From Candidatus Fermentibacterota bacterium (GTDB lineage: Bacteria; JAFGKV01), in NCBI GenBank assembly GCA_030620115.1, contig JAUXFG010000092.1, positions 1-15,312 on the forward strand: a DNA stretch of 15,312 nt, given 5' to 3'. Positions 2,957-11,611 of this stretch are shown one piece after another. Position numbers and translations under genes: made by a program. How positions within the stretch are numbered: the first letter of the stretch is position 1; every line of letters starts with the position of its first letter. The notes below the pieces were generated by a model. That model saw only the letters and a list, made by a program, of their open reading frames with translations. It was not told the origin of the DNA and made no database searches.

Positions 2957-4303
2957 ATGAAGTGGAGAGCACTATTCTATGCGGTGATAGGTCTGATAAG
3001 CCTACTCGTATTCACGGCTTTGGCCGATGGGTGGCAATGGAGGAGGATTGCGTGGGAGGGCATCTATCTCGAATCGGTCGTGTGTCCTCCGGATTCTGAA
3101 AATGTGGTATACGTCAGCACCTCAGACTGCTACCTGCCTGAGGAAGAGTGGGGTGTTTACAAGAGCACGGATAATGGATTGACGTGGCGATTTCTGGAGG
3201 AGAGCAATGGCCCGTTTCCGTACGCCGTGACCGTAGATCCAAAGGATCCTGCGACCATATACTGCGGCTACTATGACATCTTCACTGGGGACGTGCCGTG
3301 GCGGAGCCGGGACGCGGGTGAGACATGGGAAAGGACCACGGAGAACTCAACTCGATACATGCCGAGCCCGTGGGAGCATGACCTGATCTTTGCGACGCAG
3401 GGATGGAACAACTACAGCCTTTACAGAAGCACAGACGATGGGGTAACGTGGAACTGGATTTCTGGAACGGAAGAGCCGGTTTTCTGCGATCGCGTGGTAT
3501 TCCACCGTGAGGATTCGCTGGTAGTATTTGCGTGTCTTGCCTCTCCCCGTGGCTTGTGTCGGAGCACAGACAGGGGTGAGACATGGGAGCTTGTGCTCGA
3601 AGGCGAGGTGAGCGCATTCGATAATGATCCGGCGGATCCTCATCATTGGATCGCGTTCGTCGTCGTCTCATCTCAGAGCTTGTGGCCACAGTTCGCCGAA
3701 TCATTTGACGACGGGATATCATGGGAGCTGTGGGACTTCCCCTATGATGTGTGGACAGGCCGGCAGATGGTGTTCGACCTGTTCGATTCTCGGACGATCT
3801 ACATGGCCTATGCAGGGGCCAGCCCCGAACCCCTTGGGATCCTGCGATCAATGGACGGTGGGTTGACCTGGGACTCCATGAATAATGGGCTGCCGTCACC
3901 TTTTGGCGCCAACGAGCTTTTCCTGTCCAGAGCTAGGTCCGGAGAGCTGTTGGCAGCAAGGAGATACGGTCTTTGGAGATGGACCGATCAGCTGATCGGA
4001 GAGACTCCGGGGGAGCCTGTTTCGGGGGTGCTGCGAATCGAATCCGTCTCGCCGTGCCCGTTTCAAGGGAGCATGGAGGCGCGAGTGGTCATTGGGACGA
4101 GAGGCGTAGCTCGTGGCTGCGTCTATTCTCTTGGTGGATCGGTCGTACGACAGGTTTTCAGTAGACCGTTTGCCGAGGGCGTATACCAGTTTGTCTGGGA
4201 CGGGCGTGATGACGGGGGGCGCGTGGTAGCGCCTGGAGCATATGTACTGCGGGTCGAGATGGGGAATAGACAGGCAATGGGAAGAGTGGTGAAGCTGAGG
4301 TAG
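2957..4303 (+). CDS. Secreted Asp-box (BNR/sialidase-like) beta-propeller protein with FlgD-Ig-like C-terminal domain
   Basis: This 448-residue protein starts with a signal peptide (MKWR, a hydrophobic stretch to about residue 21, likely cleavage near ALADG). It carries six Asp-box motifs of form S-x-D-x-G-x-T/S-W at residues 70, 117, 158, 203, 249 and 298, the mark of sialidase/Vps10-type propellers. No catalytic sialidase arginine triad is evident, so a binding or structural role is more likely than sialidase activity. Residues 355-448 form a FlgD-Ig-like domain (WDGRDDGG, PGAYVLRV) ending in a basic GRVVKLR tail, as in proteins sorted to the surface by type IX-like systems. The ATG is set by GGAGG at 2944-2948 with 8-nt spacing. 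It appears monocistronic, flanked by a divergent gene and a repeat island. Confidence 0.87.
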   Translation: MKWRALFYAVIGLISLLVFTALADGWQWRRIAWEGIYLESVVCPPDSENVVYVSTSDCYLPEEEWGVYKSTDNGLTWRFLEESNGPFPYAVTVDPKDPATIYCGYYDIFTGDVPWRSRDAGETWERTTENSTRYMPSPWEHDLIFATQGWNNYSLYRSTDDGVTWNWISGTEEPVFCDRVVFHREDSLVVFACLASPRGLCRSTDRGETWELVLEGEVSAFDNDPADPHHWIAFVVVSSQSLWPQFAESFDDGISWELWDFPYDVWTGRQMVFDLFDSRTIYMAYAGASPEPLGILRSMDGGLTWDSMNNGLPSPFGANELFLSRARSGELLAARRYGLWRWTDQLIGETPGEPVSGVLRIESVSPCPFQGSMEARVVIGTRGVARGCVYSLGGSVVRQVFSRPFAEGVYQFVWDGRDDGGRVVAPGAYVLRVEMGNRQAMGRVVKLR

Positions 4304-4536: not shown

Positions 4537-4568
4537 ATGTCGGGTTACGTTGGGCTAACCCGATCTAC
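4537..4568 (-). repeat. REP-like palindrome, copy 2 (inverted)
   Basis: Read on the minus strand this matches copy 1 at 29 of 32 bases (differences at its 5th, 16th and 19th positions). Its own arms tcgggtta (4540-4547) and taacccga (4556-4563) also pair. The two copies bound a 157-bp interior, as in a REP doublet (REPIN) or a small non-autonomous element. I see no clear target-site duplication outside the pair. Confidence 0.8.
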
Positions 4569-4645
4569 ATTGCTAAGCTCAGGACAGGCTGGGAAGTGCC
4601 CTACGCTTTTGGAACCCTCGCTGCAATGACTGAGGCATGCCGGAG

Positions 4646-4743
4646 GTCATCGCGAGCGATAGCGCGGCGATCTCGATGGGTGGATGAGATTGCTTCATCG
4701 CGGACTCTATCCTGAGCTTGTCGAAGGGCTCCTCGCAATGACT
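4646..4743. repeat. MITE-like palindromic repeat with nested 18-bp motif
   Basis: The ends gtcatcgcgag (4646-4656) and ctcgcaatgac (4733-4743) are inverted repeats matching at 10 of 11 positions, and inner segments around gcgatctc and gagattgc are also complementary. From memory the ends resemble a widespread intergenic repeat of the type cattgcgagg...gcaatct. Within the right arm sits cctgagcttgtcgaaggg (4711-4728), itself a motif found scattered in many bacterial genomes, which suggests a repeat inserted into a repeat. A partial end-like sequence, tcgctgcaatgac, occurs just upstream at 4618-4630. Confidence 0.7.
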
Positions 4744-5002
4744 GGGCTGGGGGCCGCGGTTCCGGAATCTCGCTACGGGATATTGTATTCCCATGTTGGC
4801 ACATGCGATGAAAGCCGCTTCCCAACAAGAGAGTTGCGGCCTGCTGTTCACATGAGATAGGTTGTCCGGCGAGCGTATTGACCATTAAGTTGATGAGAAT
4901 TGCTTTCCTGACACTTGAACCCTGACAGCACGGCCCAACCACAGAACTCTGACCTCGCCCAGCTCATCCCGCCGAAGGCGGAAGCATGAGGTCTCAATGA
5001 AC

Positions 5003-5007: not shown

Positions 5008-5012
5008 ACATG

Positions 5013-7244
5013 ATGGGGAGTTATGAACGCGGGGTGCTTCAAAGCCTGGCGCGCTCTGATAAGTGGGTCCTGGGAGGGGATGGGCCGTTTCTTTGGGCGC
5101 CGGGATCTCCCATCTGGTTGGAGAAGCCTGGATTCTGGGATGCAGGCCAATTCTACCGGCATCAAATAGGCCCCTTGTTCTCTGTGGAACTGCTCGGTCC
5201 AACAGGGGAACCGATTAACCTCCGGTCGGTAAGCCGGAGATGGACCCCTGCATATGTGCTCCAAGAGTATGAGTCGAGCGGTGGCATCAAGATGCTCGAA
5301 AGGAAGACAGTACTTCCGTCCGGCGTGCTCGTCAGCGAGCTCACGGTCGAGACGGATCACCTCGTCAATATCTCTTTGGTGGCATGGAGCATCCAACCTG
5401 CCGAGCCGGATACTTCTGCGGTACGGGGCGTAGGGACGGTAGCTGTGCCAAGGCGGTTGCCCGCGCCAGTGGGTTCAAGCGAGCTTGTTTGGCTCGCTCT
5501 GGCCTTGGGGCCGGGCGAATCGGTGGTACAGGTCACTCCCTCGGAGGCCGGCACCGCGGGACCTTTGTGGACACGATCAGCACTGTGGGAAACGCTGAAG
5601 GCCGGTGACCAACCTGAGCATATAGGTCGCATGAAACACCAGCTCCACCTCGGGATGCGGATGGATTTGGAGCTCTCTCCCAAGACGCCGATTCGTCTGG
5701 TTGCCGCCATGGCGCTTGCCACGGAGAGGGAAAAGGCGGAGCAGGCTGCGCGCCAAAACGTACGCGGGGATGCCCGACCTATCGAGGAAAGCCTTGATGC
5801 ATGGGAACAATACATTGCTGCTATTCCACAGTTCCGCTGTTCATCAGAGCATGTGCAACGCTACTATTGGTATCGTTGGATGGGCCTACGCATGGCCATG
5901 CAGCGACCAGGCGTGGGGCAGCTGAAACGCCGAACAGTCTGTGAGGGGCCCGGTTACTTCCGGCGTGCCATTACGTACAGCCTGCAGGCCCATCTCCGGG
6001 AGCTCCGGTGGATGAAGACATCGCAAGTGGCACAGGATACCCTCTTTAACTTTTTCGATGCGCAAGAGGAAGATGGGCGAATCCCGGGAATCATTGACCT
6101 TGAGGGGGCGCGCGAAGAGTCGTTCTATCACGCTGACTGGGCCGGGTCGGTGCTCGATCTCCTATCGATCCATCCGAGTCGAGAGATCCTGGTGGCAGCC
6201 TACCGTTCGCTTTCACGCTATGCGCAGTGGCTCCGGAGTACCAGAGACCCGGAGGGCGTCGGACTCTACGCGGTGGAGAATCATTATGAGACCGGGCAGG
6301 AGTTCTCCAGCCGGTACCAGGTGGTGAATCCGGAGGCTGATATCCAGCATTGGGGCAACCGCTTCCAACTCCAGGGTGTTGATGCCACGACGTATGCGTA
6401 TGAGCTCTATCGGGGGCTGACGCTGATGGCCGGCATGCTTGGTGAAGAGGGGCAAGGCGCGGTGTGGAGGGAGGAGGCGGAACGCATCAAGCAAGCCGTG
6501 CTTCTGCGCATGTGGGACTCGGGAGATCAGATGTTCTATGACGTGGATTCGCGTACCGGGAACCGGACAAAGGTCAAGGCTGGCACTTGTTTCTACCCGT
6601 TCATGACCGATATGCCGGAAGAGAAGCATTGTGCTGCCCTGGAGCATCACCTCCTCAATCCGGAAGAGTTCTGGACCGAATACCCCTTCCCTTCGCTGAG
6701 CATGGATGATCCCATGTTCAATCCCCTAGGGCTCTGGAAGGGGTTGATGAGAAACTGCCCATGGAATGGGAGGAGCTGGCCTATGCTCAACAGCCATCTT
6801 GTTGAGGCTTTGGCGCGAGCCGGCGCGCGGCTGCAACCATCTCTCCTTCCCCACGCCGGCGAGGCGCTCTTGCGAACCATCAGATTGCTGTTTCTGGGAG
6901 GGGATGCCGCGCTCCCGAACTGCTACGAGCACTACAATCCCCTGACCGGCAAACCGTGCCTGTATCGTACTATCAATGACTACCAGCATAGCTGGGTTAT
7001 TGACTTGATTTTGAAATACTGCGCCGGCCTTCAGCCTGATCCCAATGGCACTTTGCGCGTCTCTCCCTTGCCTACAGGGCTCGAATTCGTTCATGTCCAG
7101 GGGGCTCGGGTCTTTGGGCATGAAATCGACATCGAAGTGGCAGATGGCAGAGTCATATCCCTCCATGTGGATGGCGAGCAGATGGATACATCAGGTGAGC
7201 GGATCGCCATAGACTTGACGGCCCTGCCTCCTACGGCGGGCTAA
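5013..7244 (+). CDS. MGH1/GH63-like (alpha/alpha)6-barrel glycoside hydrolase
   Basis: This 743-residue protein lacks a signal peptide, so it is probably cytoplasmic. An N-terminal beta-sandwich-like region (to about 260) leads into an all-helical barrel. Barrel signatures of clan GH-G and mannosyl/glucosylglycerate-hydrolase-like proteins are visible: GRSWPMLNSHLV, CYEHYNPLTGKP (E639, candidate general base) and NDYQHSWVIDLI near the C-terminus. Where relatives usually have an E-x-G-x-D-N-S-P-R motif with a catalytic Asp, this protein reads HYETGQEFSSRY (residues 424-435), putting Glu430 at that place. It is therefore either a variant enzyme or a different subfamily. The substrate cannot be read from sequence; retaining versus inverting chemistry is unknown. 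It is first in the glycan operon, with galK 37 nt downstream. Confidence 0.75.
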   Translation: MGSYERGVLQSLARSDKWVLGGDGPFLWAPGSPIWLEKPGFWDAGQFYRHQIGPLFSVELLGPTGEPINLRSVSRRWTPAYVLQEYESSGGIKMLERKTVLPSGVLVSELTVETDHLVNISLVAWSIQPAEPDTSAVRGVGTVAVPRRLPAPVGSSELVWLALALGPGESVVQVTPSEAGTAGPLWTRSALWETLKAGDQPEHIGRMKHQLHLGMRMDLELSPKTPIRLVAAMALATEREKAEQAARQNVRGDARPIEESLDAWEQYIAAIPQFRCSSEHVQRYYWYRWMGLRMAMQRPGVGQLKRRTVCEGPGYFRRAITYSLQAHLRELRWMKTSQVAQDTLFNFFDAQEEDGRIPGIIDLEGAREESFYHADWAGSVLDLLSIHPSREILVAAYRSLSRYAQWLRSTRDPEGVGLYAVENHYETGQEFSSRYQVVNPEADIQHWGNRFQLQGVDATTYAYELYRGLTLMAGMLGEEGQGAVWREEAERIKQAVLLRMWDSGDQMFYDVDSRTGNRTKVKAGTCFYPFMTDMPEEKHCAALEHHLLNPEEFWTEYPFPSLSMDDPMFNPLGLWKGLMRNCPWNGRSWPMLNSHLVEALARAGARLQPSLLPHAGEALLRTIRLLFLGGDAALPNCYEHYNPLTGKPCLYRTINDYQHSWVIDLILKYCAGLQPDPNGTLRVSPLPTGLEFVHVQGARVFGHEIDIEVADGRVISLHVDGEQMDTSGERIAIDLTALPPTAG

Positions 7245-7268
7245 CATCCCGGGCCCGTCCTGTGGCGA

Positions 7269-7275
7269 GAGGTGG
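7269..7275 (+). promoter_or_regulatory. Ribosome binding site supporting a TTG start for galK
   Basis: GAGGTGG ends 6 nt before TTG at 7282. An in-frame TGA at 7276-7278 rules out any start further upstream, and TTG at 7282 keeps the residues normally found before the galactokinase signature. Confidence 0.65.
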
Positions 7276-7281
7276 TGAGCG

Positions 7282-8409
7282 TTGCCAAGGACGCAGATAG
7301 AGCGAGAGTTCCTCCGGCTCTTCGGAAACCATCCCGCGGTACGTTCCAGAGCGCCGGGACGGGTCAATATCATCGGAGAGCATACGGACTACAATGGCGG
7401 CTATGTCCTCCCCATGGCCGTGGATCGCTATGTGGAGGTCGCATGCAGCGCTGATGCCGAGGCAAGAATACGGGTTGTGTCGTCCGCCATGGGGGAGTGC
7501 ACCATTGGATTTGCACGCTTGGAGGAGCACCGAGGCAGAGGGTGGATGAGCTATATTGCAGGGGTGATCCATGGCCTCCTGGCGCGAAAGATTCGTATTC
7601 CAGGGGCGCAGCTTCTCATTGAGAGTGATCTCCCCGTTGGCGCCGGTCTCTCATCGTCCGCCGCCATGGAGGTGGCGGTGGCTCTGGCACTCCTCCAGCT
7701 CGCAGATGTGGTACTGGAGAGGCGGGAGGTGGCTCAGATCTGCCTCGAGGCAGAGCACGATTTCGCCGGCGTGCCGTGCGGCATCATGGATCAATATGCA
7801 GTCCTATTCGGGGGGGGCGGGAATGCGATGTTCCTCGATTGTGCTTCGCAGGAGTTCGAGAAGGTGCCGTCAATACCTCCTGAATTCAGGCTTGTGCTGC
7901 TGGACTCGGGCCAGAGCCGCCAGCTCGCCGCATCGGGATATCGACGCCGAAGGGAGGAGTGCGCCGAGGCCCTGGAATACTTGTCTCAGGCAGGCATCCG
8001 TGCCTCATCTCTCAGCGAAGTGACGCCTTTGGCTCTTTTTTCCCAGCAAGAGAAGATGCCGGGAAGGCTCTTCTTTCGGGCGCTCCATGTGATAGGGGAG
8101 AACCGACGAACCATTCGCGCGGCGGCTGCGTTGCGCGACGGGAACATGATTGCCCTGGGGAGGCTCATGTACCGTTCGCATCAAAGCCTTGCGGCGCGCT
8201 ACGAGGTCAGTACGAAGGAGCTCGATCGCCTTGTGCGGTGGGCGCGCAACGCTGACGGCATACTCGGAGCACGGTTGACCGGGGCCGGATTCGGGGGGTA
8301 CACCGTGAATCTGGTCAAAGGCTCCGCAGTAGACGAGATCGTGGAGAGATCTAATACTGGATCCGTGGTGATTGGTTCTGGAGAGACTGCTTCTGCATGG
8401 CGAATTTAA
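7282..8409 (+). CDS. galK: Galactokinase
   Basis: This 375-residue GHMP-family kinase phosphorylates galactose at C1 with ATP, the entry step of the Leloir pathway. All hallmarks are present: the signature APGRVNIIGEHTDYNGG (24-40), the ATP-binding glycine/serine loop LPVGAGLSSSAA (117-128), catalytic Asp in CGIMDQY (D170, equivalent to D174 of the E. coli enzyme), and the third GHMP motif GARLTGAGFGG (329-339). Length is normal for the family, and the HTDYN segment favours galactokinase over mevalonate or homoserine kinases. Start is TTG. It sits between the glycosidase and the membrane protein, whose start overlaps its 3' end by 13 nt. The usual partners galT and galE are not in the window. 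Confidence 0.93.
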   Translation: MPRTQIEREFLRLFGNHPAVRSRAPGRVNIIGEHTDYNGGYVLPMAVDRYVEVACSADAEARIRVVSSAMGECTIGFARLEEHRGRGWMSYIAGVIHGLLARKIRIPGAQLLIESDLPVGAGLSSSAAMEVAVALALLQLADVVLERREVAQICLEAEHDFAGVPCGIMDQYAVLFGGGGNAMFLDCASQEFEKVPSIPPEFRLVLLDSGQSRQLAASGYRRRREECAEALEYLSQAGIRASSLSEVTPLALFSQQEKMPGRLFFRALHVIGENRRTIRAAAALRDGNMIALGRLMYRSHQSLAARYEVSTKELDRLVRWARNADGILGARLTGAGFGGYTVNLVKGSAVDEIVERSNTGSVVIGSGETASAWRI

Positions 8410-9842
8410 CCCTCCGTCACCTCTTCCTTCCTCTTGTTGTGGCGGCAGCTGTGTATGGCGCCTGGGGGGCAATGTCTGGTGGGGGATGGGTCAGCGATGA
8501 CTGGCCATGGTTGGAGCGTGCAGGAAGTGGGGAGATACAACGGCCTGGGAAGTTTTTTCGCCCCGGTTGCTGGATGACCTGGCGTCTCCTCTCTCCCAAA
8601 GGACCAGGGGCAGCACATGTCTTTGATCTTGTGGTGCACTGGTTCTGTGTCTGGCAGGTGAGCCTTCTGGCATGGAAGCTCTCGGGACGGTCCATGGCAG
8701 GATTTGTGGCGGGTGTCCTTTTCGCCACGCTTCCCACCCTGCACGAGGCGGTCTGTTGGAGCTCTGCGCGGTGCGGTCCGCTTGCCGTGGGATTTGCGCT
8801 CGCCGGAATTAATGCTGTCCTCCGGGATCAACGCTTGATCGCGGGGCTGCTTCTCATCGCAGCCCTCTCGATGAAGGAACCCGCCGTGTTTTTCATCTGG
8901 GGGTTGCCGCTCCTCCTTCTGTGTTTGGGGAGAAGACGGGATGCGCTTGTCTGGTCAGTCATTTTGGCCGTATTCTCTGTTGCATATGTGGGTGCGTTGC
9001 GTGCCGCTGGAGCGCACGTTGGGCTGGCGGGCGGGTACGCTGCGCCGTTCGACCTTGGAAGAAGCCTCTCACACTTGGGTTCCTATCTTGGCTTGGGGAT
9101 CGGCGTGCACGGTACATCGAACCTGTGGCCTCTCTGGTTCTTGCTGGGACTTGGGGCGCTGGGGATGGCGGCAAGGGGGAGCCCCATTTTCTTGGCGCTG
9201 TGGCTATGGGAGTGTATCATCTTTTTGCCATTCCTGAAATTGGGGGGGCCGGAACAGACGAGGTTTCTGTACCCGCTGAGCATTGTCCCCGTGGTGTTTT
9301 TGGCAATCCAATTGGCCGCAGTTGCGGAAAGAAGAAGGATCTTGAGCAGGGCCGTGATAATAGGTACCGCCTGTCTTGTTGTTTTTCTATCGATCGGCGC
9401 GAGACGGGTAAGCCATGATTGGGTCGCGTCGGCTGCGCGGGCACGGTCCATTATTGGAGAAACACGGAATGTGCTTTCCACCGAGCATCCCCACATTCTC
9501 GTTGACCCGCCTGAATGGCACGGCAAGGCTCACCTGTTCAGAAACGGCCTATTCGAGGCATTGAGACTCATCACTGAGGAGCATGGATACCGGGGAATTC
9601 TGATCCCCCCCAGCGAGCGAGTTCTTACTGCCGGGGAGCTCGCAAGGTGGCTGGAACAGCGGGCACCCCAACTGCTCCATGACCAGCATGTGGCTGCATG
9701 GCTCTACTGTGATGATAGGCCGGTGCAGCTCAATGGATGGCGAGTTCCCGAGAATGCCCGGCGGCCCTTGACTGCCTTGTTGCTGCGTGATGGCGAGGGC
9801 GATCCGGGTAGCAAGGTGAGCAGTATGGGGGAACAAGCATGA
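8397..9842 (+). CDS. Polytopic membrane protein, GT-C-like, without TPR domain
   Basis: This 481-residue protein has about nine to ten hydrophobic segments in residues 8-330 and a soluble C-terminal part (about 340-481). It aligns by eye with the membrane half of the minus-strand TPR protein: VSDDWPW (32-38) for VWDDD, FFRP (53-56) for YFRP, LHEAVCWSSARCGPLAV for RVEGVVFISSRFDLLTT, SMKEPAVFF for SKEMAITFP, and TRFLYPL for ERFLYLP. That places it in the same putative glycosyltransferase or membrane-glycan family; activity is inferred. The ATG overlaps the galK stop region by 13 nt, suggesting translational coupling; a weak GGAGAG lies about 11 nt upstream. The C-terminal soluble domain is unlike the TPRs and I do not recognise it. 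Confidence 0.78.
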   Translation: MANLTLRHLFLPLVVAAAVYGAWGAMSGGGWVSDDWPWLERAGSGEIQRPGKFFRPGCWMTWRLLSPKGPGAAHVFDLVVHWFCVWQVSLLAWKLSGRSMAGFVAGVLFATLPTLHEAVCWSSARCGPLAVGFALAGINAVLRDQRLIAGLLLIAALSMKEPAVFFIWGLPLLLLCLGRRRDALVWSVILAVFSVAYVGALRAAGAHVGLAGGYAAPFDLGRSLSHLGSYLGLGIGVHGTSNLWPLWFLLGLGALGMAARGSPIFLALWLWECIIFLPFLKLGGPEQTRFLYPLSIVPVVFLAIQLAAVAERRRILSRAVIIGTACLVVFLSIGARRVSHDWVASAARARSIIGETRNVLSTEHPHILVDPPEWHGKAHLFRNGLFEALRLITEEHGYRGILIPPSERVLTAGELARWLEQRAPQLLHDQHVAAWLYCDDRPVQLNGWRVPENARRPLTALLLRDGEGDPGSKVSSMGEQA

Positions 9843-10270
9843 ATGTTCCTTGGGATAAAGGGAACCGAGCCATAGCAGGTGTGTGTGAACATGGTTTTCG
9901 CCAGGGATGGGGTGGGACCGTTCCTGCATACCCTTCCTTTCGGCTATTCCTTCCTCCCCGCGCTACCTGCATTCTCAATCGCCCCACGGAGCGGACAGGA
10001 GTCCTGCAGGTACAACTCTTCGTTCATATAGAACGGCCCCCGTTTCCCACACTCAAGGTTGATGCGGCGGACGAGTCGTGGACATGGGCGCTCTCCGCAG
10101 GATGGCAGCTTCACCACCATCTTGTCAGCGAGGGAGCGGATCCGCTGGAGATCGTGTTTCACTGCGAGCTCGGGGCGGAGAAACCCTGGTTCGAGTTCAG
10201 GTTCACAGAAATCTCCCTCTTTGGCCAGTCGGATCCCAGAATACGCGGCAGTCTGGTGGAAGCAACGTGA
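9839..10270 (+). CDS. Small uncharacterised protein, probably beta-sandwich
   Basis: This 143-residue protein starts in an ATGA overlap with the preceding stop and ends in a GTGA overlap with the glycosyltransferase start, so all three should be translationally coupled; a GGGGGA lies just upstream of the ATG. There is no signal peptide or membrane helix. Residues 45-130 alternate hydrophobic and polar positions as in beta strands (VLQVQLFVHIE, PLEIVFHCEL, WFEFRFTEISLF) and are rich in Trp, Phe and His (three consecutive His near 92-94). This layout recalls small carbohydrate-binding-like sandwich domains found near glycosyltransferases, but I cannot assign a family. Because of the overlaps I consider it a real gene. 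Confidence 0.62.
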   Translation: MNVPWDKGNRAIAGVCEHGFRQGWGGTVPAYPSFRLFLPPRATCILNRPTERTGVLQVQLFVHIERPPFPTLKVDAADESWTWALSAGWQLHHHLVSEGADPLEIVFHCELGAEKPWFEFRFTEISLFGQSDPRIRGSLVEAT

Positions 10271-11517
10271 AGGTTCTTATTCTCTCTCCTCTGTATCTCC
10301 CGAACCGTTCGGGTTCGGCGATACATATGGCCCACCTTGCGGAGGCGCTGGCTCGCGATGGCGCATCGGTAACCGTCTGGACAAGCGATGCGCAGGACAC
10401 GCATTACTTCGTCGACCGAAACATGGCGAGGGTCAGCTGTTCTGAAGAGACGTTGGAGGGCGTGCGTGTCAGGCGGTTCCCTCTCTCATCGTGGTCTCTT
10501 CACCATCCGCAGATGTTCAATGCAATACGTGGACTTGTGCGACCGTGGACCTGGTGGGCGTTTCGCGATCCGGCCACGCATACCGCGCTCCTGTGGCACG
10601 CCCTTGTTTCTGCCAAACGATATGACCTCGTGATAGCAGGAGTGCTTCCGCATACACCGTTTCTCTTACCAGGGCTCGTGGTGGCGAGGAAGTGGCGCGC
10701 ACCACTGGTCTTTCTCACCTTGATCCATACCGGTGAACCCATGCGTGTGGAGTACCGCCAAGAATTCGTCGGCCATGGTGTGCCACGGCTTCTCTGCGCT
10801 GCTGATTTAGTCGTCTGTAACAGCCCCGCAGAGACCGGCCTTCTTGCGCGGCGTGGCATTGATCAGCGTAAGCTCGTGGCCATCGGGCCTGGTGCGGATC
10901 CGGGTTCGTGTCTGGGCGGAGACGGAGGGCGTTTCCGACGACGCTATGGGATCGAGGGGCCAATCGTGCTCCAGATGGGTACGCAGACCCACGAGAAGGG
11001 AAGCCATCATACTGCCGAGGCTGTCCTATGGCTCAGGGGCCAGGGCATCGATGCCACCGGCGTGTTTCTCGGTTTTGTTCGAGACGATTTCGATCAGGGG
11101 TACCTCGCGTACAGGACAAGTCACGAACTGAAGGGGCTTGTGGTTTTAGGCGAAGTGGACGATGCCATAAAGCGGGATGCGTTGGCAGCGGCCGATATCC
11201 TTTCCATGCCGTCCCGGGCTGATAGCTTCGGCATCTCGTTCCTGGAGGGTTGGCTCTTGGGCCTTCCGGCCATCGGCGCCTTTGCAGGCGGAATCCCATG
11301 GGTGATCGAAGATGGTGTTGATGGTTTCCTGGTTTCGTTTGGGGACTCGTTTGCAGCCGGAGGATACATGAAGGTCCTCCTGGCGCAGCCGGAATTAGCC
11401 ATGAGAATGGGGGAGAGGGGGCGCGCAAAGGTCTGGAACAGGTATACATGGGATAAGGTCACCCAGCGTTTCAAGGAGGTGGTATATCCGTTGCTCCCCC
11501 GTGACCCGCTGGGATAA
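10267..11517 (+). CDS. GT4-family glycosyltransferase (GT-B fold)
   Basis: This 416-residue enzyme transfers sugar from a nucleotide-sugar donor to a glycan or lipid acceptor; specificity is not readable. The N-terminal Rossmann half begins KVLILSPLYLPNRSGSAIHMAHLAEAL, including the glycine/serine-rich acceptor-side loop. The C-terminal half has GTQTHEKG (E243, K244, G245, phosphate contact) and RADSFGISFLEGW, in which D319-x7-E327 is the usual EX7E motif with Asp in first place. The real start is GTG at 10267, overlapping the previous stop; the frame is open further upstream, but those codons translate to unrelated residues. It is the last gene of the operon and is followed by a strong hairpin terminator. 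Confidence 0.88.
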   Translation: MKVLILSPLYLPNRSGSAIHMAHLAEALARDGASVTVWTSDAQDTHYFVDRNMARVSCSEETLEGVRVRRFPLSSWSLHHPQMFNAIRGLVRPWTWWAFRDPATHTALLWHALVSAKRYDLVIAGVLPHTPFLLPGLVVARKWRAPLVFLTLIHTGEPMRVEYRQEFVGHGVPRLLCAADLVVCNSPAETGLLARRGIDQRKLVAIGPGADPGSCLGGDGGRFRRRYGIEGPIVLQMGTQTHEKGSHHTAEAVLWLRGQGIDATGVFLGFVRDDFDQGYLAYRTSHELKGLVVLGEVDDAIKRDALAAADILSMPSRADSFGISFLEGWLLGLPAIGAFAGGIPWVIEDGVDGFLVSFGDSFAAGGYMKVLLAQPELAMRMGERGRAKVWNRYTWDKVTQRFKEVVYPLLPRDPLG

Positions 11518-11575
11518 CCAGGTCGCGGACTGATGTTCCTGCAATCCGGCCCAGCCCGTATTTCGCGGGTTTTAC

Positions 11576-11611
11576 AAATCCCCACTAAATCTATGGATTT
11601 AGTGGGGATTT
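11576..11611. terminator. Strong hairpin terminator after the glycan operon
   Basis: Arms aaatccccactaaat (11576-11590) and atttagtggggattt (11597-11611) pair perfectly. One more C-G pair closes a tatg loop, giving a 16-bp stem. The AT-rich outer ends provide a short T-rich tail on either strand, so it could act in both directions. It lies 58 nt after the glycosyltransferase stop. Confidence 0.8.

Follow-up and report, generated by a model that had tools for sequence, protein, structure and literature searches.

Whether five closely packed genes form one conserved pathway is the question raised by positions 5010–11611 of a 15,312-nucleotide stretch of DNA (hereafter the window). The earlier note on this DNA had proposed that they release a sugar inside the cell, activate galactose and build a surface glycan. 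The window is a complete contig (C205 of genome G000) from a draft genome of 4.1 Mb that is 98% complete. To answer the question, we compared the order of the genes in related genomes, the families to which their products belong and the sugar pathways of the genomes that carry them.

Organization and conservation of the gene cluster

All five genes lie on the forward strand. The first encodes a glycoside hydrolase (GH; 5010–7244) and starts with ATG; a second ATG at 5013 was the start taken in the earlier note. It is followed by a galactokinase gene (galK; 7282–8409, TTG start), a gene for a GT-C-like polytopic membrane protein (8397–9842, ATG start), a gene for a small stand-alone beta-sandwich protein previously regarded as an orphan (9839–10270, ATG start), and a gene for a GT4-family glycosyltransferase (10267–11517, GTG start). 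The successive junctions are +37, −13, −4, and −4 nt. A hairpin at 11576–11611 (forward strand; arms 11576–11591 and 11596–11611), with a perfect 16-bp stem, a 4-nt loop, and a stability of −25 kcal/mol, follows the GT4 gene as a possible transcription terminator. It was far more stable than expected (z = −5.2 against shuffles, none of 200 being equally stable). A clean T-run was not seen behind the full stem, the terminator scan of the window did not list this hairpin, and no repeat of it was found in the other loci compared. The open reading frame coordinates and fold statistics thus bore out the gene order, junctions, and strong terminal hairpin reported before, and the junctions agreed with the tight packing as a unit; the spacing suggests a single transcript. 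The five frames all appear to be genuine genes, since four are conserved in order in two relatives and galK keeps galactokinase signatures.

Other features of the window lie upstream of the cluster. Positions 2957–4303 (forward strand) encode a Sortilin/BNR-repeat protein with a FlgD-Ig-like C-terminal domain of a type often found on exported proteins. The intergenic stretch at 4540–4760 carries CCTGAGCTTGTCGAAGG and GATTGCTTCATCGC; it resembles dispersed repeats of other draft genomes, and no second copy of it was found in the loci compared.

Among the genomes compared, only G001 and G002 belong to the same family as the window genome, both in another genus, and the next-nearest genomes were classed as 'same domain' only; the lineage is therefore very thinly sampled. 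Both relatives keep the order GH, GT-C, orphan, and GT4 with no galK within the block, and these three genomes are the only ones that carry it. Identities to the window proteins were approximately 54% for GH, approximately 45–46% for the GT-C-like protein, 38–43% for the orphan, and 61–62% for GT4. The block would fit vertical inheritance, with which the 50–70% identity of other genes common to the three genomes agrees. The flanking genes differ in all three genomes. The gene upstream of GH is divergent in both G001 and G002, and the gene downstream of GT4 is convergent in G001 (in G002, the contig end falls inside GT4), which gives the unit the same limits. The orphan and GT4 genes overlap by 4 nt in all three genomes. 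In the relatives, GH and GT-C are separated by gaps of 13 and 3 nt, so that galK of the window sits exactly at that junction.

The neighborhood comparison accordingly divided the earlier proposal: GH, GT-C, orphan, and GT4 are kept together in both relatives and galK is not. Conservation of all five genes was rejected and a single conserved five-gene pathway was not supported, since neither relative has galK in the block or an orthologue of it elsewhere in the genome. A break-up of the five genes in relatives, named in the earlier note as grounds for refuting its proposal, was thus observed for galK. The order kept without galK indicates that the real unit is a lineage-specific block of four genes (GH, GT-C, orphan, and GT4) in which galK is optional. 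Judging from the three genomes compared, galK would either have been gained in the species of the window or lost in the relatives.

Galactokinase and the fate of galactose

Both its model score and its motifs identify galK as a canonical galactokinase. Its score against the equivalog model TIGR00131 was 267.5 bits (cut-off 226.65), and it contains PRVNIIGEHTDYN-type and GIMDQY motifs, corresponding to the galactose-binding signature GRVNLIGEHTDYN and the GxMDQ catalytic Asp. The closest homologues among 290 genomes showed 43–44% identity and occur in unrelated genomes outside the lineage. A recent foreign origin was not indicated by composition (codon z 0.7; GC3 0.667, like the neighboring genes). 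Two genomes of one genus, G062 and G203 (L076, L078, and L079), contain the closest non-lineage relatives of both galK and GT4, which are on different contigs in each genome.

In place of a galK orthologue, G001 and G002 encode only divergent GHMP kinases with 34–37% identity to galK and a changed sugar motif, one of which also occurs in the window's own genome. A GHMP kinase gene at L010 5990–7210, L027 5326–6663, and L028 6420–7607 is kept in all three genomes with 64–79% identity. Here G(D/S)G(E/A/Q)YTDD replaces the galactose motif GEHTDYN, and the enzyme probably acts on another sugar substrate. A second galK-like gene of the window genome, on C46, was rejected as the same enzyme (34% identity, GEHTDYN motif lost).

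The galT gene of the Leloir pathway was found in none of the three genomes with either of two models (TIGR00209 and PF01087), both of which gave matches in control genomes; the absence of galT noted for the window thus extends to the whole genome. No galE was found in the window either, as had been stated. In the whole genome, the best match to the galE model scored 180 bits (cut-off 262.3), but there are six related epimerase-type matches, so that a galE may yet be present; no GalU match exceeded the cut-off, though related proteins exist. Because GalT is absent, Gal-1-P would need a relaxed uridylyltransferase to reach UDP-Gal.

These data bear on galactose salvage by all five genes, in which GH would free galactose, galK would convert it to Gal-1-P, and GT4 and the GT-C-like protein would use UDP-Gal in a surface glycan. 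Such a route is favored by the exact, tightly joined placement of galK at the GH/GT-C boundary, by its catalytic intactness as judged by motifs, and by the soluble, cytoplasmic nature of GH. Against it, the block of two relatives does without galK, galT is lacking in every genome that carries the block, and nothing points to galactose specificity of GH, GT4, or the GT-C-like protein. We consider this route unlikely.

Families of the four conserved proteins

The GH product is, by its sequence, a cytoplasmic glycoside hydrolase of the MGH1-like/GH63-like (alpha/alpha)6 group. It matched Pfam PF22422 with an E-value of 3.7e-49 (168.6 bits; cut-off 27), and profile matches identified the structures of YgjK and beta-L-arabinobiosidase as the nearest solved relatives. 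Two carboxylates, E431 (HYETGQEFSSRY) and E640 (EHYNP), are candidate catalytic residues; both are conserved in the three lineage proteins, and E640 in 10 of 10 aligned homologues. Hydropathy revealed neither a signal peptide nor a transmembrane segment, in agreement with the earlier suggestion of a glycosidase acting inside the cell. The (alpha/alpha)6 domain and the C-terminal catalytic Glu region are common to MGH1-like/GH63-like hydrolases such as YgjK, mannosylglycerate hydrolase, and beta-L-arabinobiosidase (5mqr), whereas the window GH is cytoplasmic and has Glu at the acid position. In GH63, Asp is expected there. In a GH homologue of genome G060 (L066 7592–9814), the candidate acid glutamate is lost (HFTIGRGYLSRR), so this protein may be inactive or may rely on a different residue.

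GH homologues in other phyla (31–39% identity) are not located beside GT-C, orphan, or GT4 genes; the role of GH is therefore the weakest link of the block, and GH may have a separate job. GH, galK, and the transferases could be no more than transcriptional neighbors, GH together with galK serving the catabolism of an imported oligosaccharide and GT-C, orphan, and GT4 performing a separate glycan step. The widest junction, between GH and galK (+37), is consistent with such a division, but GH is the first gene of the block in all three genomes despite their differing flanks, and we regard the division as unlikely. GH and GT4 might instead degrade and make a cytosolic glycoside (a compatible solute or storage disaccharide, e.g. 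glucosylglycerate), the GT-C-like protein being incidental. The GH domain is named for the mannosylglycerate hydrolase MGH1 and weakly matched the glucosylglycerate hydrolase model; however, the score of 36 bits was far below the equivalog cut-off of 550, and both the nearest GT4 paralogue and the orphan domain point to a polysaccharide export locus, making a cytosolic glycoside highly improbable.

The product of 8397–9842 had no Pfam or NCBIfam match, and its structure model (pLDDT 57) was too poor to add weight regarding the fold. Residues invariant among the three orthologues (D34-D35, R55-P56, E161, and R289xxY292) correspond to motifs M1, M2, M4, and M7 described for TMTC proteins (PMC7801869); M3 is incomplete. 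On the reverse strand, positions 314–2578 of the window encode a TMTC-like GT-C protein whose C-terminal part consists of TPR repeats; it is related to the block's GT-C-like gene and may be a bacterial protein O-glycosyltransferase. A profile built from the GT-C-like orthologues of all three genomes aligned with the N-terminal half of this protein (hhalign probability 83%, E 9e-6), placing D34-D35 as the acidic pair in the first extracytoplasmic loop that characterizes the GT-C clan. The block protein is thus like a GT-C-type enzyme and putatively a distant TMTC/ArnT-like member. With TMTC/ArnT-type proteins of the GT-C/PMT clan (PMC7801869) it has in common the DD of the first loop, RP, the conserved E, and RxxY before a late transmembrane segment, but it is below Pfam thresholds, lacks the TPR region, and has RCG in place of the RxD aspartate. 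It is not a paralogue of the Wzm/Wzt-locus membrane protein (hhalign probability 0.2%).

The GT4 product matched Pfam Glycos_transf_1 above the cut-off (E 5.1e-16) and has GT-B-type GT4 domains. Comparison of the window gene with L008 7622–8875 and L009 3–1247 showed that the EX7E-type active-site motif is a DX7E variant in the window, DX7D in G002, and EX7E in paralogues at a Wzm/Wzt locus. A scan of genome contigs with GT4 as the query turned up nothing beyond a weak GT4. The paralogue, with approximately 40% identity, is present in the Wzm/Wzt locus of all three genomes, along with an ABC-2 permease, a Wzt-type ATPase with Wzt_C, a methyltransferase, a GT2, and a second GT4.

The GT2 gene lies directly upstream of the GT4 paralogue, and the C-terminal domain of its product is homologous to the orphan (hhalign probability 95%, E 2e-8). 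The orphan status assigned to 9839–10270 was therefore abandoned; the frame is a real gene because of its 38–43% identity in both relatives and its 4-nt overlap with GT4 in all three genomes. A joint profile of the orphan and the GT2 domain found only six domains in 386 genomes, none convincing outside the lineage. Since the GT2 with the orphan-like domain adjoins the GT4 paralogue, the orphan and GT4 genes together look like a duplicated piece of the Wzm/Wzt export locus, with the domain now forming a separate protein. The structure model of the orphan (pLDDT 62) predicted a beta-sandwich jelly-roll similar to carbohydrate-binding modules, for which the best Foldseek matches were TmCBM61 and CBM4 (E 3e-4). 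Assignment to a named CBM was not settled at this model quality, as VIA-align 2 also matched many unrelated jelly-rolls at Z 7–8.7.

Proposed function and comparison with known systems

The four-gene block probably builds or trims a surface sugar chain. The membrane-bound and soluble transferases invoked earlier for a surface glycan agree with a GT-C-type and a GT4-type protein, and the nearest paralogues within the genome, being in the Wzm/Wzt export locus, point to surface-glycan assembly. Our preferred reading, to which we give about an even chance, is a small block that assembles a surface glycan and includes an intracellular glycosidase; galactose activation by galK would be an optional addition. 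GT4 would draw on an NDP donor to attach a sugar to a growing glycan, probably lipid-linked, at the inner membrane face, with the beta-sandwich protein as an accessory or glycan-recognition partner. The GT-C-like protein would add a sugar from a polyprenyl-phosphate donor at the outer face, and the cytoplasmic glycosidase would trim or recycle oligosaccharide. In the species of the window, galK plausibly phosphorylates free galactose derived from the glycosidase or from uptake. A bolder version, in which GH passes sugar to the kinase and on to GT4 and GT-C, galactose enters independently of GalT, and the detached GT2 beta-sandwich acts in trans as a ruler or clamp for GT4, appears quite improbable.

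The comparison shows that a sugar kinase can be gained or lost in the middle of a glycan block whose other four genes are conserved. The orphan gains a family, its domain occurring both as a protein of its own and within a GT2 enzyme, in each case beside a related GT4. Should the block be fed by the galactokinase, this genome would be an example of GalT-free galactose activation.

A literature search found no described locus matching this gene set. The block is a lineage-specific, unstudied version of a familiar type of glycan locus rather than a startling one. Compared with known galactokinases of the GHMP family, galK has all signature motifs but lies outside any gal operon. Compared with Wzm/Wzt O-antigen or capsule loci, the block resembles the export locus of the same genomes in pairing a GT4 paralogue with the orphan-like domain; it differs in having no GT2 or methyltransferase and no ABC exporter, the ABC-2 permease and Wzt ATPase being absent from the window and found only at the paralogous locus, and in carrying, in place of these, a glycosidase and a GT-C protein.
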